A stretch of DNA of 64,000 nucleotides from Bryoerythrophyllum caledonicum (lineage: Eukaryota > Streptophyta > Bryopsida > Pottiales > Pottiaceae), in the NCBI GenBank assembly GCA_963971425.1, contig OZ020519.1:16074028-16138027 (forward strand), in the 5' to 3' direction. Below the pieces are notes generated by a model. That model ran no database searches. It saw only the letters and a program-made list of their open reading frames with translations, and was not told the origin of the DNA. Below are positions 9,425 through 62,080 of this stretch, one piece after another (positions within the stretch are counted from its first letter, which is position 1; every line of letters starts with the position of its first letter). The position numbers were made by a program, and so were the translations under genes.

Positions 9425-9434
9425 TACGTAGACG
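9425..9434. repeat. Target site duplication, left copy
   Basis: TACGTAGACG here is repeated exactly at 24381-24390 on the other side of the inserted element. Ten bases is within the 8-11 bp range typical of Mutator-like elements. Confidence 0.9.
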
Positions 9435-9500
9435 GGGAAACTTGATTACGTGAGCGGTTAGAGAGCAGTCGGCGTGAGCGGTGAGCGGTGAGCAGGAAAA
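9435..9500 (+). repeat. Left terminal inverted repeat of the large element
   Basis: The terminus contains GTGAGCGGTTAGAGAGCAG followed by three near-tandem TGAGCGG units. Its complement, with a few mismatches, is found at about 24320-24380. Confidence 0.75.
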
Positions 9501-10031
9501 TCTGAGAGATTTTTTTATTGCAAGAGTGGACTTGAGGGGCCTAAAGCCGTGGGATTTTGTAAATTAGGGCAATTGGCTTTAGGAAATTCCTATAACCGTG
9601 GGATGATATGGAGATTATTGAAAATTCATAAATAATGCTAATTGTGTACACTGTCCTGTTACCGTGGTATGTAAATACAACAAACATTGATATGTTCAAC
9701 ATGAAATCTTAAAATATCATAATTTAACCAATGTGACAAAAAACAAAGTGAATGTTTCAAGTAATTGTTTCAAGTTAAAGGTCACCCATTACCGCAGTAA
9801 TATACATGCATATGTGAAAAATTTCCAAATGCACAAGCTACAATATTAATCACCAACAATATAAGAAGATGAATTAATTATATTCTATATTAAATTGTTT
9901 CATCTTTGATGATACAAATCCAAAAATATCCATATATATTTGCCTTGGAAATTTCATTATTGTATTAAAAAATGAACCAAGTACAAAATAAATACGAGAA
10001 ACATATTGAACTCCAATATACTGCCAACGCA
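9501..10031. other. Non-coding left arm of the large element
   Basis: AT-rich sequence between the left terminal repeat and the end of the methyltransferase-like gene. It must contain that gene's 3' flank; I recognise no other feature. Confidence 0.5.
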
Positions 10032-13000
10032 TTAATCAATGGAACTACAACTGTGTGCCTCAGAAGAAGAGTCCTTACTACCTTCTTCAGCCTCCACATC
10101 CAGATACTGATAAACGCGAGGGTTGAAACGTCGTTTCTTTTGAGCTAAAGGCGGAGAGTGTGTTGCTGCAAAAGCTTGGGCAATACTGTCGGCATATGAA
10201 GGAAGGATATAAAGATCCGGGGGAGAGTGGACAAAGGCCATCAATCTGCCATAAAAAGACAATTACAATTAAAGTAATGGAAAATCATTTGAATATAAAA
10301 ACAACAAACAATTGGAAAAAACAACTTACTTACTTAAACGATTGCGTTTTGCAACTCGACGAATTGGAACATCATCATCACCAAAGATATCAATAGCTCT
10401 AGAAGGAATTGACAAAGTTGGTGGTTCATCTCAAAGAGGAGAAATAATAGCCTCAAAAATCAAAGGATCGGCTTCAAAGCCAATAACATGGCGATGCAAA
10501 TGCTTTCCTGCTCGAATAGAAGCTCCTGAAATCACATAAAAAAATATTAGAAATGTTTAATGCCGAAACATTTAATAAAAGAAGTTAATAAGAGCAACAC
10601 CTGTGCCAGCAATGGCATCTAGAATTACTGATCCTGGTTTGGTGAAGGCTTCAATAAGAATTTGGTGTAATACTTGGTCCTTCTCTCGGGCTCCCCTCCA
10701 TGGTACGATTCCGTTCATCTTTTGAGAGTCAGTTGAGATATAATTGAATAGTATATCATCTTCTTTCACATTAATACCAAGGTTGGACAACTCACGATCT
10801 ACATGAAATGTGAAGGTATTGGATACCTTCTTTTCACGTATAAGAAGGAGAATACGAAATCGGCGAGTCTGTAAAAAAAATACATGCAATCAAATGTAAA
10901 AAATATGTAACAAATGCAAAACATAAAGTAGTTGTAACTAATAATTAGTCACTTACAGTGAGCTCTGGATTATTTGGAGAAGTAAGTCGTAGCTCATTGA
11001 TGCCCCACCAGTCCTTCAAAATCTTGAACTCATAAGTTGAAGCATATGTCCTCACATCGGATCTGATTGCTTGAGATTCAGAGAGAAAAATCAAAATAGC
11101 TCCATCGGCATGAAGAAATGCTTCTGCAAATTCAAATAGAGCCTCCACGTGAGACTGAACATACGCATTCCAAGAGGGAATGTCTGAAGGTGTAAGAGAA
11201 ATTTTTGGAACAGGAAGACCTTTTGGGAGATCAGCAATGATAAGATCCAATCCACTATAAGGACAAGTATCAGAACGAAGAGGGCCTGCATCATTACCCT
11301 TGACCTACAAAATGACAATTATAAAATTAGTGATACATAACGGAAATTTGAAAATTCAAATAAATCGATTGCAATGAAAGAAAGGGTGTATACCTTCTTT
11401 ACAAATTCGTGCAATTTTAGTAGGGCTGGATGTGATAAGCCAACCTCCAAGATATCCGGAATGGAGGTTTGTTCCAACAAAACAAAAGTGGAAGGATGTT
11501 CAATTGTAGAAGTAGCAGCTTTGTGAACAACAACAGACTTCTTTGCCTTCAATTGTTGAGATGCAAGAGTTGAAGTTGAAGACGGCTTCTGAACAATAGT
11601 TTCTGATGACGGTAGAGGGTTCACTGCTACATTTGAGGAAGATGGCAAATTCGTCTTGGGTTCCAATGTATTGACGTCTGCTACATCATTTGAACCCTCT
11701 GGGATATTCTTCTTAGACCCCCTAGTTTTCTTAGCAACAGGATTTTCTACTACCTTCGAGTGGACAACTTGAGTACCTTTCAATGCAGGTTCAATACTGT
11801 CTCGAAGCCCAATGTCAAAGCTAGGAGGTCTTCTATCAGGACAGTCCAAATACCAGCCACATGACTCCCAATGGGAGGAATCCCAAGATTTCATGATACC
11901 TTTTGTTAACATGCAGTCATCGTTGTCAACATCCAAGTAGCTCGCAAAAAAAGCTGGAGACCTTGAAATTGCCTTTGTAGGAAAAATGATATACTTGAAA
12001 TAGCGATACAACGAACGTTGCATGGCGGGCTTAAATCCATACTGTTTATCAAAGGTATTGTTCTTGTGAACACCTTTCTCTTCATTGAACTCACGATGGA
12101 AACCATAATCCCATAGTTGAATCCTTATCTGCTCAATATACTCTGAAATGGTTGGAATGGGATCTTTTCCATTTGGATGGTAGTCAATGGTAACTCCCAT
12201 GTCCGCAATGGCACCATCAAAGAGTTTTTCCGATTCAATAGCCAACTGAAATTATATAAATAAGCTGTTAGCATATGCATTAAAACGAAGACAAATCATT
12301 AAGAAGTAATATTGAAGCACACTTGTGAAAAACAAACCTGAGCCCACCAAGTAGCCTTGCGAAGCCATTCGGGGAATTCTGCATCCCCAAACCGAGGTTT
12401 TGGAAACTTCAAAGCCGCACGAAGAGCAGAAGAAGAATTCCATCTCTCAAGCCATTTCACCTTCATATGGGAATCTAGAGCTGAGGTAGCAAGCATCCAT
12501 AATTTTTCTTGTGTCATCTCTGGTTCCTCGCTATTTTCATAATTTTTCTTCACTTGTAGAAAGAATTCTGGGGTGTGTTTAGGATCAGCAATGGGTAGCT
12601 GCTTCTTTAATTCTAATGTGCACTGAACCTTCATCTTCAACACCGCTTTAGACACAAACTCTTGAGCTTTGAGAGAAATCCATTCTTTGGGGTCTGGATA
12701 CTTCTCATGGAATCTCCTTTCAGCAGTGGCAGCAGCTACACCCAGCTCTTGCTGTAGAATAAACTCAATATTTGAAAGGTTAAATTATAACAATAGCCAT
12801 GCATTAAAATATGGAGAATTCAATTGTTAAAGGAAAAATTGATAAACAAATGGGTATGAGTAGAAAATACCTGATACAATACTCCATTAAGAGCTTCTGT
12901 AGTGAGTGAGAACCATGTTCGATTCTTACTCTTTTGCTTAGCTTCAGAAGCAAGAAGATCCTCCTTACTGACCAAATTTGTGAAATAAGATAAAGGTTGC

Positions 13001-16000
13001 CCCGCTATACCCTGAACTCGAAAAAATTTGTGAACCAAATTGGTAGTCACATGGCATTTTTGGTTTCTCCTGTCATACATGAATGAATCAATAAAATTAT
13101 TAGAAGTTATAAAATGAGAGTTTAATATTCAATCTGCATGGAAGGAATTTAGAAATGAGTATGGCCAACTTACCAATTCACTTGGTGTAGAGCAGTCAAA
13201 AGTGGCCCAACACATCCTTTGACATCAAGAATGATTGATTCCACTGCGTAATGCCATGTTGGATCATTAGAATGATCACGGTTGATTATTGACATCCATG
13301 CCTGCAGACGGTGATTCCCATCCCAAACATGAAACATCTTCCCGGAGAAACACCTCAAATCTTCATCTTGAAGAAGAAGATTTTCAAAAGCAGCATTTGC
13401 TGCAACCCAATGAGGGCTCCACGAATCTTTTACTTCATTTGTCACATCGACAATTTTACCTTCATGATCTTCCAAGGCAACATAAAATACGCCATTGCCA
13501 TCCATATATCCATTACTCAAAAAGTGAGATGCGAGATTCTTGACATCGTTTTTCAAAAATGGTCTGACAACATCCAACGATATCATCCGACAAAGAGGAA
13601 TTTGAAGTTTGGACTTGGTCTGTGGTTTAAACCGTAAAGTGTCCAAGCTTGATGAAATATTCACTGACTGCTCAGAAACCATAAGATGCATTTTTTTGTC
13701 CAACTCGTCCGCAGAAATAATATCCTCAACACTTGTTTGAACGTCCATAGGGTTGTCATCTTCATCAATCACTGCACAAACATAATTAGAAGAAACAATT
13801 ATAATTTTGAGCATGGTAATCAACAATCCATTCACGCTCATGAGACTTTGATTGGAGGGTTCCCTTCCTAGGCCCCGTTTTTTCACTCTCAGCCCTTTCA
13901 AGGCCCCACATTGCACTCATATTGCCATACTTGTAAAGTATCATCCCAAAAATTTGACAGCCGTCAAAGAGGTGCCGGCACCGGCATTGGTTTGAGATCG
14001 TACTCCATCGTAAAATATTTGAAAAATATTTATCAACATGGATCTATCAACCGGCGGTTCGATCCTGACCGACGCATTCACTACATTTTCATGGCAGCCA
14101 TCCTGTTAATAATGCAGCCACCCAACAAGTCCCAACATATGTGATGATAGCTTTATAGACAGGTGAATATCCACGTCAAGTGACAGTTCTCATAATGTGG
14201 TCCATGTTGAGTGCACGTTAGAACCGACCATAAAGATTCAGAGACAATAGTATCTAGTCCCGAAATGTTTTGTAGGGTAAGCTGAGCGGGAATTTACTGA
14301 ACGCCACAAGTCCATGGGGTTGCGAAACCACGACAACATCACAAACCCGAAGAATTGCGTCTCCGGACCACCATCAGCAACGGTTCAGGGGATTAGCTCT
14401 CCATCGACTCATGCACCACCACCTTAACTAGGAGTTTAGGGGATCAGGATCGCCATCGATTCATGAACCACCACCGTCGCCTGCAGTTTAGGGGGTCACC
14501 ATGCTCGGAGCTGACAACCAATATCAACTATCTGTAAATAAATCTGGCACATCGAAGAGAAGCCGGCACCGGCAGGCCTCTCCAGGCACCAGGCACCCGA
14601 TCGAGATCGCCCACTGATGCCCATTGATGTGATATCCCCACAACTACGAAATATAACTAGATAATCTTGCAGCCTAGGTACGGTTAGCTACAAACTGGAG
14701 GGATGTTGTCTAGGACTTGTTTCATAATGTAACTGGAGTTAACTTCAAGCATGTAATTGAACTGAGCTCGACACGAGAAAGCTGGTTCGATATGAAGAGA
14801 TGTCCGCCTTGCTCAGCTTAAATGCAACATCGAAGAGGGTGCCATAGTTTTTGAATACCATGTTGGCGGCTGTCGTGAGGCTTATTACAGACTAAATGTT
14901 GAGTTTGAGTGTCAAAAGCTAGCCAATCTGTACTACTGCTTGCAACCGCCAAGCTTTAAACCCTGTTCTCAATAGAGGACTGTGTGCACATTTAGTGCAT
15001 TGTGCAGGCAGCTGGGTTGACACTTCGGGAGGGTGCCGGCACCGGCAGGCCAAACAACAAGAGAGCCGTCGACGAAGATCAATGAAGAAGAGAGCCGTCG
15101 CACTGCGGTACGAACTCTAGAACCTGAAATCCACATTATCAAGGGTGCCGGTGCCGGCACCGGCAGGCCAACTCTAAACTGAAGCTTGATGAAATATTCA
15201 GGTCAAGGTTCATAACTTCATCACATGACCACGTCGATCCCGGCATGCAACATGGCATGCAAAGTGCCGCCTCTCATTGCAAGTCCAGTCAAGCGAAATC
15301 CAGGTTTCCAACAGGGGTGCCGGTGCCGGCAGGCCTCCACAAAACTGAATCATATAAAAATATTCGGCTCATAACTTCATTGCATGACTTCAAGTTAGTC
15401 CGGCATGCAACATGGATCCCCATACATTTTTTATAGGGTGCCGGCACCGGCAGGCCTTGGCTCGTTTCACTTCGCTAGGATGCCGGCACCTGAAGGCCTT
15501 AATAAGCATCACTTTGCAAGGGTGCCGGCACCGGCAGGCGTCTTTGGCTGGCGTCTACCACCAGGGACCAGCTACCACCATCCACCATCACTTTGTCGAC
15601 GTCGCAAACTTGGACGGGGCCATGTATTCCATCACCGCCGAGCCCAAAGCCACTGAATGTAGACAACGAAGTAGGGAAGCAACAAGGAAGTAACTGCGGG
15701 CTATTTAGGGTGTGCGGGCTAATAACCGGCGGACCTTGCTACACTATATTGCAAGCAGACCCGGCGGACCTTAGGCGGTGCCAAAAGCGGTGCCACTTCA
15801 CTGGGGTGCCGGCACCGGCAGGCCTTGGCTGGCTTCACTTTGCCACGGTACCGGCACCGGCTGCCGTCTTCCACTTCACGGGATCGACGTCGCGAACCCA
15901 TTCAACTGCGTTCCCGAGCCACCAGACTAGCATCGCCATCCATACTCATGCACCACTACCATCAACAGGAGTTCATGCAGGCGCGGACCTTAGTGCCCGC

Positions 16001-17561
16001 AGACCTTAGTGCCAGGGATCTGTCCGCACCCTAACAATCTCTCCAATAGTATCCTTACGAACTGCGCTCTAGAGCCTGGAAAACCCGACCACTATGCGCG
16101 GCACAAGGATGCCGACTTCCACTCGACCACTTTACTGATCCCAGAAAATTGAAGGGTGCCGGCACCGGCTGCCGATTTCCACCCTCTTTCTGGGGTTTGA
16201 AGGAGCTACCCGAAGCTCATTCAAACTGACGTGCCCGCACCGGCTGCCAACTTCCACCTTCACTTTGTCGACCTCGCAAACTCCATCATCTGCTTCCGCG
16301 AGCTACCAGACAATCAGATAGTCCCGCCATCCATACTCATGAACCACCACCATCACCATGCGGAGTAGTCGGTGTTACCCTAAATCTGTTGAAACTGATG
16401 TGCCGGCACCGGCTGCCCTACCTTGGCGCCACATCGCCATGTTGACCACGTCGATTACTTTGATCAACGATGACCACGTCGACAACGGTTAGCATGCTCC
16501 ACCACCATCAATAGGAGTTCGCAGGTTGATCACAACATGTTGATGACAACGTCGCAAACTGGATCAACATCACGAACCCGATTAATAATGTCGATCAACT
16601 GTCAATCAGGTTGATCATGCAAACCATGTTTCAACGTAGCTAACCAACTGTCGATTATGAGCATGCTTACCAACTTGGTCGACGTCGCGAACCCGATATA
16701 CTGCGTCCCCGAGCCACCAGACAACCAGGTAGCATCGCCATCAATACTCATGCACCACCACCATAACCAGAAGTTCATGCAGGCGCAGATCGTGGAGATC
16801 AAACAGGTGCCGATCGACCTTGGTACTAGAAGTTCATGCAGGCGCAGATCGTGAAGATCAGGCAGGTCGTGAACATCTCTCGAATAGTAATCTCGAATAG
16901 TAATCTCGATTCAGGTCGTGAACATCTCTTGAATAGTAATCTCGAATAGTAATCTCGAATAGTAATCTCGATTCAGGTCGTGAACATCTCTCGAATAGTA
17001 ATCTCAAATAGTAATCTCGATTCAGGTCGTGAACATCTCTCGAATAGTAATCTCGAAAACTGTGCTCGAGAGCCCTGAAAACTGTGATGGGCACAAGGCT
17101 GCCGACTTCCACCTGACCACTGTCCTGAGCCAAGTTTCTACGAAATCACAGAAGGGTGCCGGCACCGGCTGCCCACTTTCACCCTCCTTCTAGGGTTTGA
17201 ACTGGCTACCCAAAATACATGCAAACCGTTGTGCCGGCACCGGCATCCTTGTCCACCTTCATTCTGGGGTTTGAACTTGTTACCATAAATCTGTTCAAAC
17301 TGATGTGCCGGCACCGGCTGCCCTCCCTTGGCGGACAACAATACACGCATCCGAAGAGAAGAATAACATTCACACCATCTTCCCGCACCATTCAACGCAA
17401 GGATCCAACGGCGGTCCCTTTCATAACAACATCAAAAACAAATAAACCTAGATACAGATCTCACCTGGAGATGATGTAGTTGTATGGACAACTTCTTCTT
17501 CAGTCAAGGCAACCTCCTCCAATATGCTCTCGATCGATGGTTGATCCTCCTGAAATTCCAT
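10032..17561 (-). CDS. ParB-like domain / beta-class N6-N4 DNA methyltransferase-like protein
   Basis: I read nine exons: 17465-17561, 13174-13771, 12871-13069, 12338-12751, 11394-12245, 10957-11304, 10601-10868, 10330-10525 and 10032-10245. All have GT-AG borders, all phases match, and the total is 1062 codons including stop. The start ATG (17559-17561) gives MEFQEDQPSIESILEE. Exon 2 has a ParB/sulfiredoxin-like signature, FHVWDGNHRLQAWM. Exon 5 has a low-complexity Ser/Pro/Lys-rich linker. Exon 6 holds LIIADLPKGLP, the motif IV position. Exons 7-8 hold KPGSVILDAIAGTG, the SAM-binding motif I, then HVIGFEADP. Motif IV before motif I is the beta-class order of N6-adenine/N4-cytosine methyltransferases. 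Two oddities stand out: DLPK replaces the usual DPPY, and an in-frame TGA at 10431-10433 would end the protein at 956 residues, losing a tail with KKRRFNPR. Modified target specificity, a non-catalytic DNA-binding role, or early decay are all possible. Confidence 0.75.
10431..10433 (-). other. In-frame TGA in exon 8 of the methyltransferase-like gene
   Basis: After ...FEAIISPL the frame reads TGA and then stays open (DEPPTLSIPSRAIDIFGDDD) to a good splice donor and a final exon. It could be a recent nonsense mutation, or the true stop with a retained old tail. The methyltransferase core lies upstream and is not removed. Confidence 0.75.
15885..16800. repeat. Longer degenerate repeats within the iteron region
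   Basis: A block reading roughly GTCGCGAACCC...GAGCCACCAGAC...CATCGCCATCC...ATGCACCACCACCATC...AGTTCATGCAGGCG occurs near 15888, 16268 and 16685, and partly near 14440. It suggests local duplications inside the intron. It is not coding in any consistent frame. Confidence 0.6.
16863..17057. repeat. Higher-order tandem repeat GAATAGTAATCTC
   Basis: A 13-base unit GAATAGTAATCTC is repeated two or three times and then followed by GATTCAGGTCGTGAACATCTCT. The whole ~50-60 base block occurs four times, the last partial. It lies within the first intron of the methyltransferase-like gene. Confidence 0.9.
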
Positions 17562-17948
17562 CCTCAGCAATACTCAGTGTAGCAAGCGTGTGAAGGAGAA
17601 TAGGTTAGGGACAGTGAGTTAGAGATGTGGAGATAGAGAGTGGATATGGACAGGGAGTTGAAAGTTGGAACGACGTTGGAGAGGATGAACGAAGTTGGAG
17701 AGGATGAACAAAGTTGAAGAGGATGAACGAAGAGTGTCCTGGGAGATGATACCCCTAACGGACCAAGTGTCCAAATGGGTGGAAGCAAAGTTCGGTCAGT
17801 TTCCAAGGATGTCAATTTCCAACATTCCCATTAAAAAAAATTCATTGTAGAAAGGCATTACCAAGACGTTAGTGAGATTTTTTTTTATTAAAATTGTACA
17901 TTTGATGAAAAAATTATGGGGTTTTGAATTTCAAATGGGGAGATCGGG

Positions 17949-18335
17949 CACCTCGGGCAACTCTAAAAGCTTTTGCTAGGACACTCTATTAAATGTGAAA
18001 TTTTCATTACTTGCAAGTAATATTGTTTCCCTTTGAGTTGTCAGAAATAAATATTGTCTTTTGTGAGAAAAAGCATACAAACCCAAGTCAAACATTTTCA
18101 CACATTGTCACCCATTGTCGGACAAGGTTCCAAAATAAATTCTTCTTTTCCACATCAAAACTAGATATCTTTATATTTTTCTCTTTTATTTTTTCCACAA
18201 CAAATATGTGGTGTAAACCTTTTATTTACCATTTGGTTAATCAATCTAAAACATACAAAGTTCACAAAGTATTAAAGTGTGAATTGTCAAATTTTGAACC
18301 TCCATTCCTAGCACTGTTGTTTTGAATATGCTACA
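17949..18335 (+). repeat. ~385-bp dispersed repeat, copy inside the large element
   Basis: The sequence from GGGCAACTC...TTTTGCTAGGACACT to TTTTGAATATGCTACACCC matches 38437-38828 over its length with moderate divergence. A weaker partial relative lies at 28729-28950. There is no coding capacity. Its presence both inside the mobile element and next to host genes means either it inserted into the element or the element arose from host sequence. Confidence 0.8.
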
Positions 18336-18607
18336 CCCTTCCTCTAAATTTTGAAATAATGTTTCTTTATAAATCTTAATTGGAATCCTATGATCACAAA
18401 TAGAAATCAAAGTTCTTGTTTCCGTCAATGATGAGAGTTTGTTAAGAGATCATGTTATCTTCCAATTAAATATAAATGGACAAGTAATGAATACATGAAT
18501 GAACCTCTACATATAACGTTTATATTGCCGTGACACCATCCGTATAAAATTTTCAAATCAAAACCCTAGAAACAAGACAAATTGTTATGTCGTAAGTTCT
18601 GAAGAAA

Positions 18608-19099
18608 CTAATATTTTGTTACATTGTTGTTAAGCATTATACAAATTTGTTGAGAGCATACCAGATATCCATTTGGATGTCTGCTCACCTCAATCTCGTC
18701 CTTGTCCTTGTCCTTGTCCTTGTCCTGGTCCTGGTCCTGGTCCTCCTCCTCATCCTCGTCCTCGTCCTCGTCCTCGTCCTCATCTTTGTCCACAATGATG
18801 TCTTCTTCACGTGCCGATGTCGTAGCACTACCCTCTCCAATTGTGTGCAAACGCCCACTTCTATCGTGCTCTCCAATCCCAAATGCTAAGACACAACGGG
18901 TATCTCCTAAGTCATCCTCAAGAATCTGGACCTTCCGTCTTCCCATCCTTGACTTCCTCAATTGTTTCGCACTTGAGAAACGAAGTCCGCCTTTCCTCCT
19001 CCTCTTCTTTTTCTCAACCCCGTGAGCAGCTGTTTGAGTGACAACTTCTCTGTGCATCTGCAAATAATCACATCTCAACTGAATCAACTCAGTAAGCAC
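18608..19099 (-). CDS. Unrecognised acidic, lysine-rich protein, possible partial gene
   Basis: The frame encodes a basic segment (EKKKRRRKGGLRF), a mixed region (KVQILEDDLGDTRCVLAFG) and a long Asp-Glu/Asp-Gln/Asp-Lys run from a (GTCCTn) microsatellite. A good acceptor (TTTGCAG) lies at about 19057 and a possible donor (GAG-GTGAGC) at about 18692, so the true gene may be spliced with further exons I could not place. It lies on the same strand as, and upstream of, the methyltransferase-like gene, between it and the transposase. I do not recognise a family. Nuclear localisation is only a guess from the basic and acidic tracts. Confidence 0.35.
   Translation of the reverse strand: MLTELIQLRCDYLQMHREVVTQTAAHGVEKKKRRRKGGLRFSSAKQLRKSRMGRRKVQILEDDLGDTRCVLAFGIGEHDRSGRLHTIGEGSATTSAREEDIIVDKDEDEDEDEDEDEEEDQDQDQDKDKDKDKDEIEVSRHPNGYLVCSQQICIMLNNNVTKY
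18690..18785. repeat. Microsatellite of GTCCTT/GTCCTG/GTCCTC units
   Basis: About fifteen consecutive six-base units of three slightly different types, in blocks. On the minus strand they encode alternating Asp with Glu, Gln or Lys. Confidence 0.9.
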
Positions 19100-20171
19100 G
19101 GTTCATTAAAAGATATCAACTTGGTAAGCCTTTTATTGTTGTATCTTTGCAACTACAACCGCAAGAAGCAATGGGTCATAATCTACATAGATCTACTTCA
19201 TTTCTAACTTGAGTATAACCAGCTAAAGGTTCAATTATTTATAGATTTCAAATTTGCAATCCCACTTGACCATCAAGGTATCCACCGTCATCATTAATAC
19301 TATATGGTATTTTACATATGTTCACTATCATTGACAGAGTTGCACATTTATTTTATTGGTTGACAGTTAGAAATGTATTCTATTTTCAAATATTAACTAT
19401 TTTACATATTTATTTTTTTACAATTATACCTACCTAAGCACAACCATAATTCAAGGTACCAACAACAATGACATGTCATTAATTGTTTCTTCTTGAAATA
19501 CACAAACCGCCAAATCTGTTATATTGTAATACACCCTCAACGTCATCTCCCTCACTTTGCATGTTGTCCATCGTGCACATGTCAATCATTGCAAATGCCC
19601 ATGTTGTTCTCCGTATAAATATGCAAATTTCCATTAGTGTCATTCACTATTTTAGTGTTTTCATACCAACTTCTAAATACTTCACTGGGTAATTGAGGGT
19701 GACTGAAATTTGGACCGGTCAGTTTCCACCATAATATAGGACTGCCGGCAACGGCAACCCTTCTCATAAACAACTTCTTTTATTGATAAACCAAAATTAA
19801 GATAGTAAACTGACAACTGTGGCGCCTCTGTCTACGGAATACTATATAAAATACACTGCAAGATTGGACTGCCGCTGCCGGCTGCCCATTCCCACAAACT
19901 AAAAATGGGAAAGAAAAGAAACGGCAATGCTGGCAACCTTATCAATAATTGGGGGACTTTAATTTTATCAGCCCATGATTTTTCTACTTCACTATATTCC
20001 TAAGACTCGGGATACAAGTAGCCATCATATATATCTCTAGATGAAACATCTTCATCTGTATACCATCTTGACACCGCAGACCATCTTCGATTTGATGCAT
20101 GATTTCTATTTAATGTATTGAAGTCCCCCTAGCTTGCCATTGCCTTCTCTTGCTTGCTGCATTATTATGTC
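19100..20171. other. Intergenic region upstream of the transposase
   Basis: AT-rich sequence between the acidic ORF and the transposase start. It holds weak copies of the GC-rich motif (CTGCCGGCAACGGCAACC near 19741, CTGCCGCTGCCGGCTGCCC near 19869), so the putative binding motif also occurs upstream of the transposase. It probably contains the transposase promoter; I cannot place a start site. Confidence 0.4.
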
Positions 20172-23100
20172 ATGGCTTCTCTTCGATTCAACGGCGTCGA
20201 TGTTCCTCTCACTATTCCCCCAGTTGCCAATGGGTCATGCACTATCCTTGCGTCTGTACTGCGAGTCCGTTACGAGTTAGATATTATGTCGATTCATATT
20301 GAGCTAGAGGTCTTGGACGAGAAAGGAGTTTTGGTTGAGTCCATACTTATGCTCTTCACGGTCGAAGGCGGCGACCGTTCTTGGAACCTTTTGCCTGGTA
20401 GGTATAGAATCATAGGTCTGAAATTCGAACAGATGGAGGCAACGACGAAGATCGATACGCGAGACAAATCAACAACGAAATCGAAGAATGTTGTGAAGAT
20501 TGAGCCTGGAACGGAGACTATCGTATTGTTAAGCGATGACGACGACGACCCCCCTCTAGCGGACCTTTCCGCATTCACGCCATTACGGACACCGCAGCCA
20601 ATCGAGGTCGATTCGCAGAGAATTGTTGGAGGCTTTGTCCAACATACTTCCGCTTTGAAACCGCCTCGCCCCAATAGTGCTGAGGGCCTTGGGAGCATCG
20701 TCCACAATCTGAGAAGACTCATTACCAGACCAGGTGCACGAAATGCCCTCAGACGTCTCGATTTCAATTCGGTCCCCGTCCACCAAGTAAGGTACCTCCC
20801 TCAAATTTACAATGGTGATGTTATTTACGAATTTGAGCCAATTGGTGACTTGAAAAAACAAGGAGGCCTGATGGACGGGATGGATAAGCGGTTCGATGGC
20901 CACGCATGGTGCAGGACCAAGACAACAAATATCCAAAATGACATGGGCCTCACCTTCCGCTACTCTGCATGCGCGGGGCATCTTCGATGCTCAAATTCTA
21001 CATGTGATTATCTGAACCGCGAGCAACGGTTGTACGAGGTGAACGAGATGGAGTGGGATGGGTGTACTGAAAATCCCTTCAGGGTGGGTGAGAGTCCACC
21101 CAAGAAGTCGACTCTAGTATGTGGAATTTGCCGAGAGCCCCCCATGTGCGTGGACACCTGTCCGGCTCTTCTATACTATGCGAGCGGCCAAGGGGATATG
21201 ACACGTGCGTGCATCCATCTTGGGACTCACAATCATCCGGTGAAAACTGGAGATTGTCGTGAATCGCTCCTCAGAATGAAGGCGCTTTGCAATGACCAAG
21301 TTTCTAGAATGCCAAGTGCAACCCATTCTAAGATTGTCCTCGAGGCAAGTAAGGAGTTCTTGAGTGAATTTCTCATCACGAAGGAAGGCAAGATGGCGGT
21401 GCCTCTTACCGTTGATCAATTGTTTGAGGTTGCAGAAAAATTCAAGTCATTCACGTCGCCAAAGTTGCGGCATACTGTATCGGGATTGAAGGCGCTACCT
21501 CGCTTGGGCCCAATCGATGGAATCACGAACCTGGCCGGTCTCAGTAATTGGTCTTACGTTCGGGATAACAAGTTTCCGGGGCAGGGGAAGGGGAAGGTAT
21601 TTGTGTTTAAGATGTCCGAGGTTGGCCCTGGATCTGGCCTTGGCTTAGTCCTCCGAATGCAACCTGGCGGTGATTTGCAAGACGCTTGGATGATGTTTGA
21701 CCATGTTAAACGAGTGAAAAGTTGGACGACCATGGCGTGTCATGTTTATGATCCGGGATATTCGAAAGTCATGACTATTGCGATTTGTGACATGCAGTCG
21801 GAGGACACGGAAGCGCAATCCCTCCTCTGGCATGGTCTCAATGGTGTTGTTTTGGATGCTGGACACACAAAGCCAGTATTTAAGGGATTCATGGCTGATA
21901 GTGCTCAGGCAAATTGGAATGCCGTTAGAATTATATACGGGTCTGGAAGCAAGACGGAGAAGATGGTTGGCCAAGAGAGGACGTGTCTATTTCATTGGAC
22001 TCAGTCCATGACGGAACACACCGACAAGCACATCAAGCCGGAGCTCCGTGAGCAACACCGACTACTCTGCAAGCAATACAAGGACTCTACTACCATTTCG
22101 GATGCCAAAGCTCGTTATCGTGCTATAAGAGAGTGGTGGATTTCAGCAAAAGCTGCGACTGGTGATAAGGACATCTCGAAGCTGGATGAATGGTTAGCAT
22201 TTTGGCATTTCCGCTATATTCAATGGGGTGGAGCTATGTCCCTGGTGAGTCCCTCATACTACCATATTTTCTAATTCATTTCCTTTTCTTATAATATTGT
22301 AACTTGTTCTTATTGATATCCGTGTAATTGATAATTGTATCTAGGATCTTACGGACGAGGAGCGGGCAAGCATGCCGAGGTGCAACCTTGCGGAAACAAT
22401 GCACAACAAATGGCTCCAAGCATCTGGGAACAATGGCAGTGATCTCTTTGAGGCAACTTTGGATGATTACGTTAGGGCCTTTATGCAGGTTACTCATTAT
22501 ATTTCGTTTCTCAAGGGTGAACGTGGAGGGACTGGTCCAGGTAAAAACGAACTAAGATTGAGGAGAGCCCAAGAGTCTAGAGATCCGAAAAAAATTAAGG
22601 CAGCAATGGAAAACTTCCAAAATTCAGCGGACCTCCTCACACGATCTCCACACTTTGTTGGTGAGGAGGTTTTTGGGTCAACTAAGCGCAAGCTTAATCT
22701 ACCCCCAGGATCGGAGTTTGACTCACATCGCCCGGAGAAGATTAATTTCTCCCATCCCCGAGTGGAAACTCGGTCGGCCAAGGCTCAAAGGACTCATGAA
22801 GTCCTTGAAGCTTTTGATGAGGATGCACATGTGGAAGAGGATGTTGATCTAACTACTGGCACAAACGATTCTTCAAGTCCGGAACATATGGACAGCGTTA
22901 GTGCCGGGCATAATCGACCTACCTATGTTACGGAGGTAGAAGAGTCCGATTGTGATGTTACCGAATGGCATATCACTCGAGTACCTAAACATCGCACCGG
23001 TGTAGCATGTTGGGCTCTCCAAGCCGTCTCTCAGAAGCAGTGCACAATGAAGATTATCCAGAAAAAAAAGGCCACTGCATGTCCCACATACACAGGAAAC

Positions 23101-23826
23101 TGGACGAACTATCACTCTGGTAGAATCCAACGACAAGAGTTTTATTTTTGCCCCAACGATATTAACCGGTGTCTATTGGGCTCTAGCAAAAAATGGGTTC
23201 TTACTCGCCCGGATATCGTTCCACACATTTGGCCTGTTAAGAGGGGCACCAATCTAAAGCGGTCGGAGATCATTGCACTAGAGCGCGCTGGTTTTCAGCT
23301 TCCACAGAAGCGAGAAGCGTCTCCCCGTCGGCACTTCGAATCAACCAATGTCGATGGTGTTGACCTTGCTGCGTACCCAATTCCAGAGGACGCTGACAAA
23401 CATCCCACGTCTCGCTTCACCAAAGTGGTCAAGCGTCGTTCCGGCGGGCCAATTGCCACCCAGATTCAGCGATGGGGTTCAACCAATATGATGAAGGCAG
23501 TAATTCGGAAGCGCACAATGGTGCCCTTCCCAGGACTCGGCTGCATCGTCGATCTTGAGGTTGACTCCTCCACTACCCACACCATAGAGCACTACATTCT
23601 TACGCTCAGCTCAATTCCAGCTTGTACATGTCCCGACTTTGTTTCAATGCAGGTGAAGGCCAACCGATCCGGCCGGTCTTGGACTAATTGCAAGCATTTA
23701 TATTTTGTCTATGCGGTCGTGTGCAAGCTCGATGAGCTGGAGGACTTGTTTGTCCATGCCCCCACACTTAGCTTCAACGAACTCATGCCTGTAGTGCAAG
23801 CCATTTTGTTGTACAAGCTTTCTTGA
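20172..23826 (+). CDS. Mutator-like transposase with SWIM zinc finger
   Basis: Two exons, 20172-22244 and 22345-23826, joined by a 100-bp GT-AG intron in phase 0, give about 1184 residues with no internal stop. The first ATG in frame is at 20172 (MASLRFNG). The N-terminal part has a SUMOylation consensus (VKIE) followed closely by IVLLSDDDDD, a SUMO-interacting-type motif, around residues 110-131. A Cys/His region (HLRCSNSTCDY ... CIHLGTHNHP) resembles WRKY/GCM-type zinc-binding domains common in MULE transposases. A transposase core is suggested by CDMQSED and KGFMADSAQANWNAV, then CLFHW. The C-terminus has CTCPDF...NCKHLYFVYAVV, the C-x-C...C-x-H SWIM finger. It would recognise and move the surrounding element. 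Exact DDE residues need alignment. Confidence 0.85.
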
Positions 23827-24319
23827 AACTTTATAGGCGGACTAGAACTTGGAAAGTCATTATAATACCAAGTGTTATAGTTGTTGAGTTTAGTCTCTTC
23901 TGCGTATCATGTTTGCATATCTCCCAAGAACCATAAATCTACAAATTCAGTAATCATGCCACTCCAAAAATGTGTCATATGTTTGACTCTTGTCTCATTT
24001 GTTCCAACTTTTTTCAATGGACTAATCCGGGGACTAGAAAGGTTATAATTTTGAGTGGTAAAAAAGTAGGAATTTATATCATGGTCCACGGTTATAGGAC
24101 CCCTGTTTCCCATTTTTTATAGTTTCACTTTGAATTTCCAATGACTCACACGATCATTTACAACCATCATAACGGAGAAATGAGTAAAATTTTGCACGGC
24201 AATCGGTCCATATTTTTTCCTAATTTAGACCTTTTGCATAAGAAAAATCCAATTTAGAATCCAATTTAAGAAAATCAAATTTTAAATTTTAAAAATTGCT
24301 AATTTTAGGTCTTATTTTT
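23827..24319. other. Non-coding right arm of the large element
   Basis: AT-rich sequence after the transposase stop, presumably carrying its 3' UTR. No other feature was recognised. Confidence 0.4.
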
Positions 24320-24380
24320 CTGCTCACCGTTCACCGCTCACCGCGAGCGCTCTCAGACTGCTCACACGGTCTCGTCGTTG
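24320..24380 (-). repeat. Right terminal inverted repeat of the large element
   Basis: CTGCTCACCGTTCACCGCTC followed by ACCGCGAGCGCTCTCAGACTG and CTCACACGG is the imperfect complement of the left end at 9435-9500. The outermost bases match less well. Confidence 0.75.
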
Positions 24381-24390
24381 TACGTAGACG
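24381..24390. repeat. Target site duplication, right copy
   Basis: An exact second copy of TACGTAGACG. It is followed by ACCTAGC, which continues the RT reading frame as YVDDLA. Confidence 0.9.
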
Positions 24391-31321: not shown

Positions 31322-32988
31322 CAGTGGTCAGCACAAGTGTTTGGACAGGACGCTTCCACTTCCAATATGAGCTAGTTTTCTTACGTAACTCACATTCAAG
31401 TTGTAAAAATTTAAACATACAATCACATAGTTACAAAAAACATGTAACATAACATTCATAATAAAAAATGTCAATCAAGAAATCAATCAAAAATAAAACA
31501 CATGATGTGGGTGTCCAATTCTTTATGCAAAAAGTGAAGTGGTTATCTATTTACATTGGAAACAAAGCCATGAGCTACAAAATCAAGCTAAAAACTTGAA
31601 TGTAGAATCATGAGGACTACCTAAAAACTTGAATGTACAATCATAATGACTACCATCGTGTATAGCCACCTTTTGCTTGATAAACATCTGCAGCTCTCTC
31701 AGGCATAGACATGATCAATTTCCTCACGGTATCAATCTCAATGCTATACCAAATTTCTTGCAATTTCTCCCACAAATCCTTCTTGTTAGTGGGTTTCTTC
31801 TTTGACATTCTCATACGACGATCTACTTCATTCCAAAGGTGTTCTATAGGATTCAAGTCAGGAGATTGAGCCGGATGCCAAATTAGTTGAAACTTCTGTG
31901 CTAACAACCAATCTGTAACATACTTAGAAGTATGTTTGGGATCGTTGTCGTGCTGAAAAATAACATTCTCCTCTCCTAAATCATACATGTGTATAGTATT
32001 CATGAGCTCCATCTCCAAAATTTCACGATACACAAACTTATCCATGTTTCCTTCTATAAGACGAAGGTTGCCAATTCCCTCCCAAGTCATACATCCCCAA
32101 ACCATAATGTTTCCACCTCCAAATTTGATAGTAGGTTGCACATGCTGATCTAAAAGATGCTCTCCTCTCTTCCTCCAACAATACTGCCTCCCATCTGAGC
32201 CAAACAAATTGAATTTTGACTCATCTGAAAAAACCACATAACTCCAGTCCATCCAACTTGCATGCCTACACTTCTTTGCCCATGCATATCGACGTGCTTT
32301 GTGTTTCTTTGACAAGAATGGCTTCTTAGTTTTCACTCGTGCTCTCAATCCTTGCCTCTGAAGACATCTTCTAATTGTATCATCACTCAAATCCAATCCT
32401 TGAGATCGCATTTCTCTACCCACTGCTGCAGCTGTACCATTAGATGGTGCATTCAACAACCTTACAACCTCACGATCACCACGTTCATCAAGAATTCGAG
32501 GTCTCCCTTGTGAAGGAGCATCTCTCAAATGACCTCTCATTGTAAACCTCCGCACAATAGCATGGCAAGTGCTTCGAGAGATGCCTAGAACCGCTGAAAT
32601 TTCGGAGTACGAATTCCCTCTCTCATGCATCTGAAGAACTAACTTACGTTCAGCAAGAGTCCTTCTAGGAGCCATAGCTAATCAAGAGCAATCTTATTCA
32701 ATCACAATGTGTCTTGAAATGCAAGAGGTCTCCATAAATACATGTCGATTCTCAAGATTTTTCAGATGCACAACTTGTGTGCATAATGAATTGGACACCC
32801 ATGATTGACACATCATGAACTGCAGCCCATGCAAGTGGCTCAATGTGAATGATGGTACTCTTTCTAGTTTACAAGTGGCTCTTTAGTTATAATTAGCTGA
32901 AAAAATCAGCACCTACCTACCAAACTCGACAAGTGTTACTATTAAATTGAGATTGTAATTACTGTCCGAACACTTCTGCTGACCACTG
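31322..32988 (-). mobile_element. Tc1-type transposon, apparently intact
   Basis: The 1667-bp element has inverted ends, CAGTGGTCAGCACAAGTGTT on the left and the complement of CAGTGGTCAGCAGAAGTGTT on the right. TA dinucleotides flank both ends (31320-31321 and 32989-32990). It contains a full-length transposase gene without stops. All requirements for autonomy that can be seen are present. The right end lies 74 bases before the start codon of the carbonic anhydrase gene. Confidence 0.92.
31650..32675 (-). CDS. Tc1-like DD34E transposase
   Basis: 341 residues, uninterrupted. The N-terminal half has paired helix-turn-helix character (YSEISAVLGISRSTCHAIVRRF, about residues 18-39; then LSDDTIRRCLQRQGL). 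The catalytic triad is D in FSDESKF, D in FQHDNDPKH, and E in SPDLNPIEHLW. I count 34 residues between the second Asp and the Glu, the Tc1 spacing. WGCM and GHLRD-GRP linker motifs are also typical. It cuts and pastes the surrounding element at TA sites. Plant mariner-like elements are more often DD39D, so a DD34E Tc1 element is noteworthy here. Full length and intact TIRs suggest recent activity. Confidence 0.95.
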   Translation of the reverse strand: MAPRRTLAERKLVLQMHERGNSYSEISAVLGISRSTCHAIVRRFTMRGHLRDAPSQGRPRILDERGDREVVRLLNAPSNGTAAAVGREMRSQGLDLSDDTIRRCLQRQGLRARVKTKKPFLSKKHKARRYAWAKKCRHASWMDWSYVVFSDESKFNLFGSDGRQYCWRKRGEHLLDQHVQPTIKFGGGNIMVWGCMTWEGIGNLRLIEGNMDKFVYREILEMELMNTIHMYDLGEENVIFQHDNDPKHTSKYVTDWLLAQKFQLIWHPAQSPDLNPIEHLWNEVDRRMRMSKKKPTNKKDLWEKLQEIWYSIEIDTVRKLIMSMPERAADVYQAKGGYTRW

Positions 32989-38436: not shown

Positions 38437-38830
38437 TGTGGGGCAACTCCAAAACCTTTTGCTAGGACACTTTATCAAATGTGAGGTTTTTAATACTCGC
38501 AAGTAATATTATTTCCTTTCATAATGTCAAAAAACATTTCTTTGTCTTTAGTGGAAAAATGCATTTTAATCCCAAGGCAACACTTTCACACATTGTCAGG
38601 CAAGGTACCAAAAAAAACTTCTTCTATTTCACATAAAACTTAAATATCTTCATGATTTTTTATTTATTTTTTCCATTACAAGATGTGGTGTAAACCTTCT
38701 TATTGACCATTGAGTTTATCATTCTAAAAACACATGAAGTTCACCAAAAAAAATAAAATTTAAATGAGAATGAATGGGCACTTTTTGAACCTCCATTCTT
38801 TGCACAGTTGTTTTGAATATGCTACACCCC
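38437..38830 (+). repeat. ~385-bp dispersed repeat, second copy
   Basis: Matches 17949-18335 inside the large Mutator-like element, in the same orientation, with many small differences. Confidence 0.8.
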
Positions 38831-60695: not shown

Positions 60696-61288
60696 GATTT
60701 CTCAAACTTCTCCCAAACAAATCGCCCTCCACTCTCTCTCTTCTAGCTTACTAAACCCTTCCAGGCAACGTCACAGCCGGGTTTCGGAGCGTTTCCGCCG
60801 CTGCAACGTCGTGCGTTGCAAACGAGTAGGCCTCGCTTGAATGAGCTGAGACGACCGGATGAAAGCGAAACGTAAAAGTAAAAAGTAAACGTAAAAGGAA
60901 GACACGAACAGAAATAGTACTGGCTTCTGATTGGCCTCTCATGCAGAATTTGGATTACGCTCTGGATACCCGCCAAATACTCCTCTCACACCCGCCGATT
61001 ACTCGGGAGATACTCCCCTACCCGAAATACCCGTGAGTATACCCGCCTAGGTATCTGCGTCTCTCTCACTAACTCACGAGTCACTCTCGCACATTCACTT
61101 TGCGAGCATCGCCATCGCCGCAGCAGCTGAATTCTCGTGCTGCAGAGCAGGAGCGGGGGCCATCGCTGCGATTGAAGTTTCTCGGAGCACGGAGAGGGGA
61201 TTGGATAGCAATGGCCGGGTGATCGCTGCTGGAGGCGAGTCGAGACGAATCAATAAGAGGCTGTTGCGAGGGTTTGACGTCTGTTTCA
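60696..61288. promoter_or_regulatory. Shared upstream region of divergent RPAC2 and GNAT genes
   Basis: 593 bases separate the two divergent start codons, so the region must contain both promoters and 5' UTRs. I see no TATA box I would defend. CCCGC/ACCCGCC-rich short repeats lie around 60968-61045. Overlapping minus-strand frames are not credible genes. Confidence 0.5.
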
Positions 61289-62080
61289 ATGAGCGCGGCG
61301 CATACGGCGGTTGTAGCGACTGTTAGGTGCGTTTCAGAGCCGCAATTGCGGTATGGAGTGCGGCGGGTAGAGTTTCGGGGATGTGAGCGGGTGAGGTGCG
61401 AGGAGCGGCGGTGGCGGGGGGTCGCGGGGTTGGATTTGAGGGCGCGCGCGAGCGGTCGTGCAGCTGGTGCGGTGGCGGTGCGGCGCTGGGACCTGCAGGT
61501 GACGACGAACTGGCGCGACGTCGATGTTGAGGAGCTGCGGGCGCTTCTGACGGCGACTGCGCAGAATTGCGACCAGTTCCCGAAGGTGAATTCCGACGGG
61601 ACGATTGCGGAGCCTGTGAGCCCGGTGAAGCTGCGGCGCGCGCTTCAGCATAGTTTTATCGTCGTGGCGATGTACGTCCGCGGGGGACTCCAGGAGGATT
61701 ACTTTCCGGACCGGCCCGACGCGCGGACGCTGAAGCGGACGCTGGTCGCGTTCGGGCGCGCCACTTCGGATCGCGCGCTCACGGCGGCCATCCACGACCT
61801 CGCCGTGGCGCCGTCGCTGCAGGGCCAAGGGATCGGTCGCCGTCTCGTGCAGCGGATTGTGCGCGAGATTTGCCGCTACGGCATCTCGGATATCTCCGTC
61901 ATCGCCGGCCGCGACATCAGGCCCTTCTTCCGGTCGTGTGGCTTCGGCTCCGACGTCCTGGGATCCACCGCCATGATGTACACCGCCGCAGAAGATTGCA
62001 GCGATGCCGAGCTGCTGTGGACGCTTGACGCCGCGGAGTCTCGCACGAAGGAGGTTGTAAACAATGTATCATCAGCATAG
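61289..62080 (+). CDS. GNAT-family N-acetyltransferase, probably plastid
   Basis: Single exon, 263 residues, very GC-rich. The first ATG in frame is 61289 (MSAAHTAVVAT). The first ~70 residues are Arg/Ala/Ser/Val-rich with few acidic residues, compatible with a chloroplast transit peptide. The GNAT core follows: FGRATSDRALTAAIHDLAVAP (beta-4), then LQGQGIGRRLVQRIV, the acetyl-CoA pyrophosphate-binding Q-x-x-G-x-G/A motif, then ISDISVIAGRDIRPFFRSCGF and TAMMYT. It resembles plant plastid GNATs that acetylate protein N-termini, lysines or serotonin-like amines; the substrate cannot be assigned. Lack of introns and higher GC than its neighbours are the only oddities. Confidence 0.88.
   Translation: MSAAHTAVVATVRCVSEPQLRYGVRRVEFRGCERVRCEERRWRGVAGLDLRARASGRAAGAVAVRRWDLQVTTNWRDVDVEELRALLTATAQNCDQFPKVNSDGTIAEPVSPVKLRRALQHSFIVVAMYVRGGLQEDYFPDRPDARTLKRTLVAFGRATSDRALTAAIHDLAVAPSLQGQGIGRRLVQRIVREICRYGISDISVIAGRDIRPFFRSCGFGSDVLGSTAMMYTAAEDCSDAELLWTLDAAESRTKEVVNNVSSA

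Follow-up and report, generated by a model that had tools for sequence, protein, structure and literature searches.

Introduction

Two described transposon systems come closest to the locus treated here, an element in the genome of the moss Bryoerythrophyllum caledonicum. According to the accessible parts of the published accounts, VANC21 of the Arabidopsis element VANDAL21 binds a short motif that forms arrays in the VANC/VANB introns and upstream of VANA, in the same orientation and as tandem repeats (PMC5735166), and a related VANDAL family has another motif (PMC5735166, PMC10398659). In Ectocarpus, the element Sola1-1_Ec32 encodes on the strand opposite to its transposase a protein of 1104 amino acids (aa) with ParB-like and N4/N6 methylase domains, for which the available text suggests binding to, and modification of, the element that encodes it, and the same source cites green and red algal cases (to Iyer 2011 and Petroll 2025; PMC12477816). 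Transposon-borne ParB-methylase accessory proteins are thus already known, and the idea of such a companion gene, which our first-pass annotation called unusual for a plant Mutator-like element, is not new. That fungal DNA transposons carry TET/JBP proteins, as was also stated there, agrees with the accessible literature (PMC12730594), and retrotransposons bearing DNMT have been described as well (PMC5890265).

We analyzed a stretch of 64,000 nucleotides (nt) from contig OZ020519.1 (C7:16074028-16138027; “the window”), which contains a 15-kb element, provisionally Mutator-like, with a transposase gene and a divergent accessory gene. At least five subfamilies of its family (A to E) are present in this genome, the window copy being an A element. 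We propose, with a probability of about 0.5, that the accessory protein is a self-recognition factor of an anti-silencing type that acts on an array of sites within its own element, and that it is probably non-enzymatic in subfamilies A to D.

A methylase fold with an apparently eroded active site

By sequence comparison, the C-terminal half of the accessory protein has a beta-class N6/N4 methylase fold. The Pfam profile PF01555 matches the protein of the window with E=3.1e-7 and 31.0 bits (cut-off 26.7), and the closest PDB sequence to this half is CcrM (1.6e-4). Using hhalign, the fold was recovered with 97.0% in local mode against 14 bacterial-type methylases (annotated frames, including one labeled hypothetical), with 99.0% in global mode against 16 methylases, namely those 14 plus two frames from unannotated records, and with 98.6% in a further comparison, while 50 shuffled queries reached at most 2.9% in local mode. 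Fifteen of the 16 comparison methylases come from phages and one from a plasmid. Motif IV precedes motif I, as in beta-class N6/N4 methylases. The fold named in the first-pass annotation is thereby corroborated, and as the Pfam search suggested there returned the N6/N4 methylase profile, a missing methylase hit can no longer be held against it. In subfamilies B, C and D, the PF01555 scores read stay below the cut-off (B 22.0, C 20.5 and a D fragment 14.9 bits). In tblastn searches against phage and plasmid DNA, the C-terminal half retrieves bacterial-type methylases and nothing usable was obtained for the N-terminal half; relatives sought in IMG/VR and GTDB genomes were not found.

In the comparison methylases, motif IV ends with P-Y, the aromatic position being aromatic in 16 of 16, and HPxxKP is present. 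At the comparable positions, the window copy has DLPK and GAREKD. Twenty A and B rows were aligned, two of which (L103 and L104) are truncated or decayed at motif IV and were left out; none of the 18 readable rows has Y, F or W at the aromatic position, as the window has DLPK, five A rows have DLPE, eleven B rows DVPE, and one row DVLE. Motif IV reads DFPD in C, DVAE in D and DQPF in E, so that the catalytic pattern [DNS]-x-P-[YFW] is absent from the window copy, the readable A/B rows, C and D, and only the DQPF of E would comply with it. Motif I ends with AGTG in A and with AATG in B, its ending in C, D and E is AST(G), and in the A to E rows read, HPxxKP is replaced by a sequence of the PWRGxxE/RK type. 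For the rotifer N4CMT, the available part of the report describes that a change of SPPY to APPA abolished activity (PMC8885841). The simplest reading is that the accessory protein of A to D has kept its fold and probably lost its active site, and, because the catalytic aromatic residue of motif IV is gone, the fold probably is a binding scaffold rather than an enzyme. The protein of subfamily E may still be enzymatic.

The N-terminal half carries the sequence VWDGNHRLQAW, whose DGNHR core is conserved across the aligned family rows. A ParB-like domain with this GNHR motif had been proposed. The motif stands, and the ParB identity found no support: no ParB match was found for the accessory protein in Pfam, NCBIfam or PDB sequences, hhalign against 80 Bacillota ParB proteins (one ParB clade) gave 0.2% with the single sequence and with an 18-member family alignment alike, and a six-frame search of the moss genome with PF02195 gave 0 hits. 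As all profile comparisons were negative, “ParB-like” here denotes a motif-level resemblance and not membership; with one ParB clade covered, the protein may still have a distant ParB-like fold. An AlphaFold model of the N-terminal exon from the single sequence had low confidence (mean predicted local distance difference test score 34.2).

Gene pairing and purifying selection

Exon-wise searches of the moss genome (437 Mb, 894 contigs) gave 161 matches for the accessory protein and 99 for the transposase. Transposase identity is 93-98% in A (the window plus four near copies), about 70-77% in B, 47% in C, about 50% in D and 43% in E, and the divergent gene pair is present in the representatives read of all five subfamilies. 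At least 20 of 24 transposase places with at least 69% identity are accompanied within 20 kb by an oppositely oriented accessory match (about 16 kb off in one case); these places were counted by hand, leaving out exon-2 rows and the second row of one element. At the remaining places (C6:24521855, C2:34866517, C6:4061065 and C1:20055149), no accessory match is among the matches listed. Eight PF01555 matches exceed the cut-off in this genome, and the one that was read, L161 (C3:3864500-3872500), is the accessory gene of the fifth subfamily, E, with its DQPF motif IV, adjoining a related transposase. The genome search suggested in the first-pass annotation thus shows that the gene pair recurs, and an absence from other copies no longer needs to be considered.

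The accessory gene has evolved under purifying selection and is no passenger. Between A and B, the ratio of nonsynonymous to synonymous substitution rates (dN/dS) is 0.139-0.195 with a mean of 0.164 (55 pairs), with 0.088 for the N-terminal domain, 0.18-0.21 for the methylase exons and 0.33 for the last segment. Within A, where changes are few, the ratio is 0.23-0.76, and within B the median is 0.16 (range 0.09-0.63). The mean coding dS between A and B exceeds 1 in four of five segments.

Arrays of repeated sites

Intron 1 of the accessory gene contains, at 13974..17318, an array of 16 sites GCCGGCACCGGC with at most one mismatch, 14 on the plus and 2 on the minus strand, whereas 500 shuffles yielded 0.012 sites on average and never more than 1. 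Two more sites of this type lie upstream of the transposase ATG, GCCGGCAACGGC at 19744..19755 on the plus strand (428 bp upstream) and GCCGCTGCCGGC at 19871..19882 on the minus strand (301 bp upstream), and there are no others in the window. Among 16 aligned sites, which include one with two mismatches and leave out one overlapping site, the identity is 0.90 in the core and 0.28 in the flanks, and 0 of 120 pairs exceed 60% in the flanks. A second A copy has 14 sites in 3.6 kb, and the B copy C12 has 19 sites in 5.4 kb between transposase and accessory exon 2 (maximum of 1 in shuffles). The C12 sites are all antisense to the accessory gene, as are most A sites. When the array regions of A and B are compared, alignments with E below 0.1 occur at the sites only. 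In 4/5 A and 7/12 B-like copies, sites with at most one mismatch precede the transposase start by 209-435 bp.

The motifs differ in the other subfamilies. The C element has 17 exact copies of GCCGGCAACGGC and 0 of the A/B core, and its shuffles contain at most 1 site when one mismatch is allowed. In the D element, TTTCGGATCCGAAA is present in 5 exact copies, or in 7 if one mismatch is tolerated, and some of these form a 117-bp tandem (0 in shuffles). For E, L162 contains TGTTCTGTACAGAACA in 2 exact copies, or in 6 if two mismatches are tolerated, of which five lie where the transposase has its intron (0 in shuffles of L162), and L161 adds 3 more TGTTCTGTACAGAACA sites within two mismatches. 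The motifs of D and E, like GGTGCCGGCACC, are perfectly palindromic; the C motif and the 12-mer A/B core are no palindromes as a whole but contain GCCGGC. Local tandem units of 42 and 74 bp were found in A, units of 21, 128 and 319 bp in B, and units of about 117 bp in D. A search for inverted repeats that could indicate a nested insertion in intron 1 gave no pair enclosing the intron that stood out.

Of the 33 places at which the A 18-mer occurs genome-wide, 25 belong to A elements or adjoin their decayed relatives (0 places for the reversed control). The counts for the shorter motifs are 573 for GCCGGCACCGGC versus 86 in the control, 304 for GCCGGCAACGGC versus 18, and 476 places for the D motif versus 0. 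Away from the transposases listed, TTTCGGATCCGAAA arrays with a spacing of about 520 bp are found at C1:5819524-5822668, C1:19184182-19187348 and C1:59691348-59694514, which perhaps are satellites or non-autonomous elements. Same-strand clusters of GCCGGCACCGGC, also away from the transposases listed, are located at C1:423725-427019, C1:1419709-1423003, C1:6213350-6214482 and C1:20695499-20696033.

The element and its two genes

The element occupies 9435..24380 of the window, without an assigned strand, as delimited by target-site duplication (TSD), terminal inverted repeats (TIRs) and empty site, and it interrupts the reverse-transcriptase (RT) frame of a long interspersed nuclear element (LINE). 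The TSD TACGTAGACG, at 9425..9434 and 24381..24390 (both plus strand), is a perfect 10-bp duplication, and when the flanks are joined with a single copy, the LINE RT frame SAAYVDDLAIL is intact again. The TIR cores of 52 nt each, at 9450..9501 (plus) and 24314..24365 (minus), are 83% complementary. The perfect duplication and the imperfect TIRs of the first-pass annotation were thus both found again. Among five copies examined, four have a 10-bp TSD (the window copy, A1, A3 and B4), and none was found at copy A2; TIR matches exist at both termini of A1, A2, A3 and B4.

TSDs of 8-11 bp are given for Mutator-like elements in the accessible text of a published description (PMC6446971), and with 10 bp and TIRs the element agrees with both features. 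Its transposase gene consists of exon 1 at 20172..22244 (plus strand, 691 codons, with CxxH at residue 605) and exon 2 at 22345..23826 (plus strand, to the stop), separated by a GT-AG intron, and encodes 1184 aa with 0 internal stops, which bears out its description as complete. Exon 2 contains at residue 1118 a SWIM-like CxC..CxH, a pattern match with no profile hit. The transposase found no transposase match among Pfam or NCBIfam profiles, an AlphaFold model of its core from the single sequence had a low confidence of 45.5, and a Foldseek search of the PDB with this low-confidence model gave 531 matches at E<=10 and 0 at E<=0.001. The earlier classification as Mutator-like therefore fits TSD, TIRs and the CxC..CxH and CxxH patterns but lacks a profile hit of the transposase, and we keep it provisionally. 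The KDZ superfamily was considered and dropped, as there was no Pfam hit and KDZ elements have an 8-bp TSD versus the 10 bp here.

The accessory gene lies on the minus strand, divergent to the transposase gene, and has nine exons with GT/AG junctions in phase and 1061 codons, in agreement with the earlier model. Exon 1 of that model is at 17465..17561, and a 3.7-kb intron separates it from exon 2 (13174..13771), which encodes the conserved N-terminal domain with DGNHR at 13308-13322. Exons 3 (12871..13069), 4 (12338..12751) and 5 (11394..12245) are followed by exon 6 (10957..11304) with the motif IV region (DLPK at 11221-11232), exon 7 (10601..10868) with PWRGAREKD and the beginning of motif I (DAIAGTG), exon 8 (10330..10525), and exon 9 (10032..10245) with the terminal stop; the remaining seven introns measure 75-119 bp. 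The spliced frame contains 2 stops, one internal and one terminal, whereas in 300 dinucleotide shuffles even the best frame never had fewer than 37. The internal stop, which the first-pass annotation had overlooked, is an in-frame TGA in exon 8 (10431-10433, minus strand; codon 957 of 1061), by which the gene of the window is truncated after the methylase fold. In this column, 2/20 aligned rows have a stop, the window and the decayed copy L103. The remaining four A copies each have a stop elsewhere in the accessory segments read, and 4/11 B copies have none in the five segments read.

A possible further upstream exon at 18689..19057 (minus strand), with a basic KKKRRRK followed by an acidic run, would stay in frame when joined to 17549 and extend the gene to 1180 codons. 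Between this candidate and exon 1, positions 17955-18338 are 76% identical to about 38441-38829 outside the element (402 columns, E 5e-72), and this pair is a dispersed repeat that is nested in or shared with the element. In base composition, the accessory gene has a GC content of 0.415 and an observed/expected ratio of CpG (CpG o/e) of 0.53, the transposase gene 0.492 and 0.87, and intron 1 has a CpG o/e of 0.85.

The interrupted LINE extends over about 6337-27410, has RT and RNase H domains, and is broken at its YVDD motif by the inserted element; an endonuclease-like match of 24.4 bits is just below the cut-off of 24.5. Elsewhere in the window, a stop-free Tc1/mariner-type transposase frame of 343 aa (DDE_3, HTH_Tnp_Tc3_2) is located at 31650-32681 (minus), and a GNAT acetyltransferase frame at 61223-62080 (plus).

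Possible function of the accessory protein

The anatomy of the element resembles that of VANDAL21, and we therefore think that the accessory protein most likely recognizes its own array and counters silencing or otherwise regulates related copies. The protein, consisting of the DGNHR domain, a middle part that could not be assigned and the C-terminal methylase fold, would most likely bind, perhaps in dimeric form, the sites that are arrayed in its own family, and in A to D the fold would probably serve as a binding scaffold without catalysis. Bound to the array, it could distinguish copies of its own family, which would then be de-silenced or otherwise regulated in a VANC-like manner. A wider evolutionary form of this proposal, for which we see somewhat less than even odds, is that a bacterial ParB-methylase-type protein became a non-catalytic self-recognition factor, and that parS-like, palindrome-type arrays co-diverge with the accessory proteins and bring about a family-specific anti-silencing or copy maintenance that is independent of VANC.

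Several observations speak against self-recognition by the accessory protein. The array could instead be read by the transposase, the ParB-like identity failed in every profile test, the C sites occur in both orientations (10 and 7), and the upstream sites are missing in 1/5 A and 5/12 B-like copies. Clusters that lie apart from the listed transposases hold many of the A-core and D sites listed, and the motifs are thus not exclusive to these elements. The arrays were read in two A elements, in one B element nearly as a whole, and in a single element for each of the subfamilies C, D and E, and accessory exon 1 was mapped in A alone, so that the arrays of B to E are placed between or beside the genes. 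Finally, as all five A accessory genes carry a stop in the segments read, subfamily A may be dead.

What alternatives exist for a self-recognition factor? The array may be a site of action for the transposase or for a host factor at a bidirectional promoter, with the accessory protein acting elsewhere, for instance in transposition. The sites upstream of the transposase in A and B-like copies agree with this, as do the position of the E array at the transposase intron and the fact that array differences track the transposase subfamily as much as the accessory protein. Transposases of elements with TIRs bind at element ends, however, and most A sites are inside accessory intron 1, which makes this alternative unlikely, although it is the strongest competitor. 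Slightly less probable still is an active methylase that deposits N6-methyladenine (6mA) or N4-methylcytosine (4mC) on its own element, which would thereby be marked, protected or de-silenced, along the lines suggested in the first-pass annotation and in PMC12477816. The fold match with PF01555 and hhalign, the purifying selection across the fold including the last segment, the GxG of motif I that A retains and the motif IV aromatic residue of E agree with such an enzyme. Against it, A to D have lost this aromatic residue, B to E have lost the GxG, HPxxKP is replaced in all rows read, and the rotifer variant with APPA was inactive. Of the marking, protecting and de-silencing that the first-pass annotation considered, we keep self-directed de-silencing as the favored proposal, whereas the enzyme is probably inactive in A to D.

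Two further explanations were considered. The arrays could have arisen by neutral, functionless growth of tandem repeats, in keeping with the local tandem units in A, B and D and with the occurrence of other arrays elsewhere in the genome. We regard this as improbable, since cores at 0.90 identity are embedded in near-random flanks (0.28), and since A and B share the core in an otherwise unalignable region despite a mean dS above 1 in 4/5 segments. That a single element captured a host gene, as in Pack-MULEs (MULE, Mutator-like element), is rejected. The two genes do differ in GC (0.415 vs 0.492) and CpG o/e (0.53 vs 0.87), but five diverged subfamilies all contain the pair, the A versus B dN/dS is well below 1, and the sole other PF01555 locus read (1 of 8) also adjoins a related transposase. 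Self-recognition by the accessory protein thus remains our preferred explanation.

Comparison with known systems

Like Sola1-1_Ec32 in the available description, the moss element has an accessory gene with a methylase domain on the strand opposite to the transposase, but the transposase there is of the Sola1 type and here provisionally Mutator-like, and the likeness is one drawn from descriptions. The TET/JBP and DNMT elements likewise carry DNA-modification proteins, of other enzyme classes and in other element types. A similar domain pairing exists in fusions of ParB domains with adenine methylases, which are prokaryotic and again comparable by description. METTL14-type proteins are catalytically degenerate methylase subunits, and their methylase fold, as proposed here for A to D, is retained as a binding partner after the loss of catalytic motifs, albeit for RNA and in another methylase class. 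A combination of a Mutator-like host element, an eroded active site and differing arrays was not found in our searches of the open-licence literature.

If the proposal is true, it cautions against concluding from a ParB-methylase annotation that a transposon gene must deposit methyl marks, and the subfamilies with their different motifs offer ready protein-site pairs for swap tests. The closest parallel is VANDAL21 with VANC, which shares with our family the Mutator-like element, the arrays in an accessory intron and upstream of the transposase (in our case in A), and the subfamily-specific motifs. It is a parallel of layout. The VANC motifs in the accessible descriptions have 8-9 nt and are not palindromic, and no methylase fold is described there for VANC. 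If the accessory protein indeed reads its arrays, the problem that VANC solves, the freeing of an element's own copies, would have been solved a second time in an apparently unrelated way, with a methylase fold that lost its catalysis.

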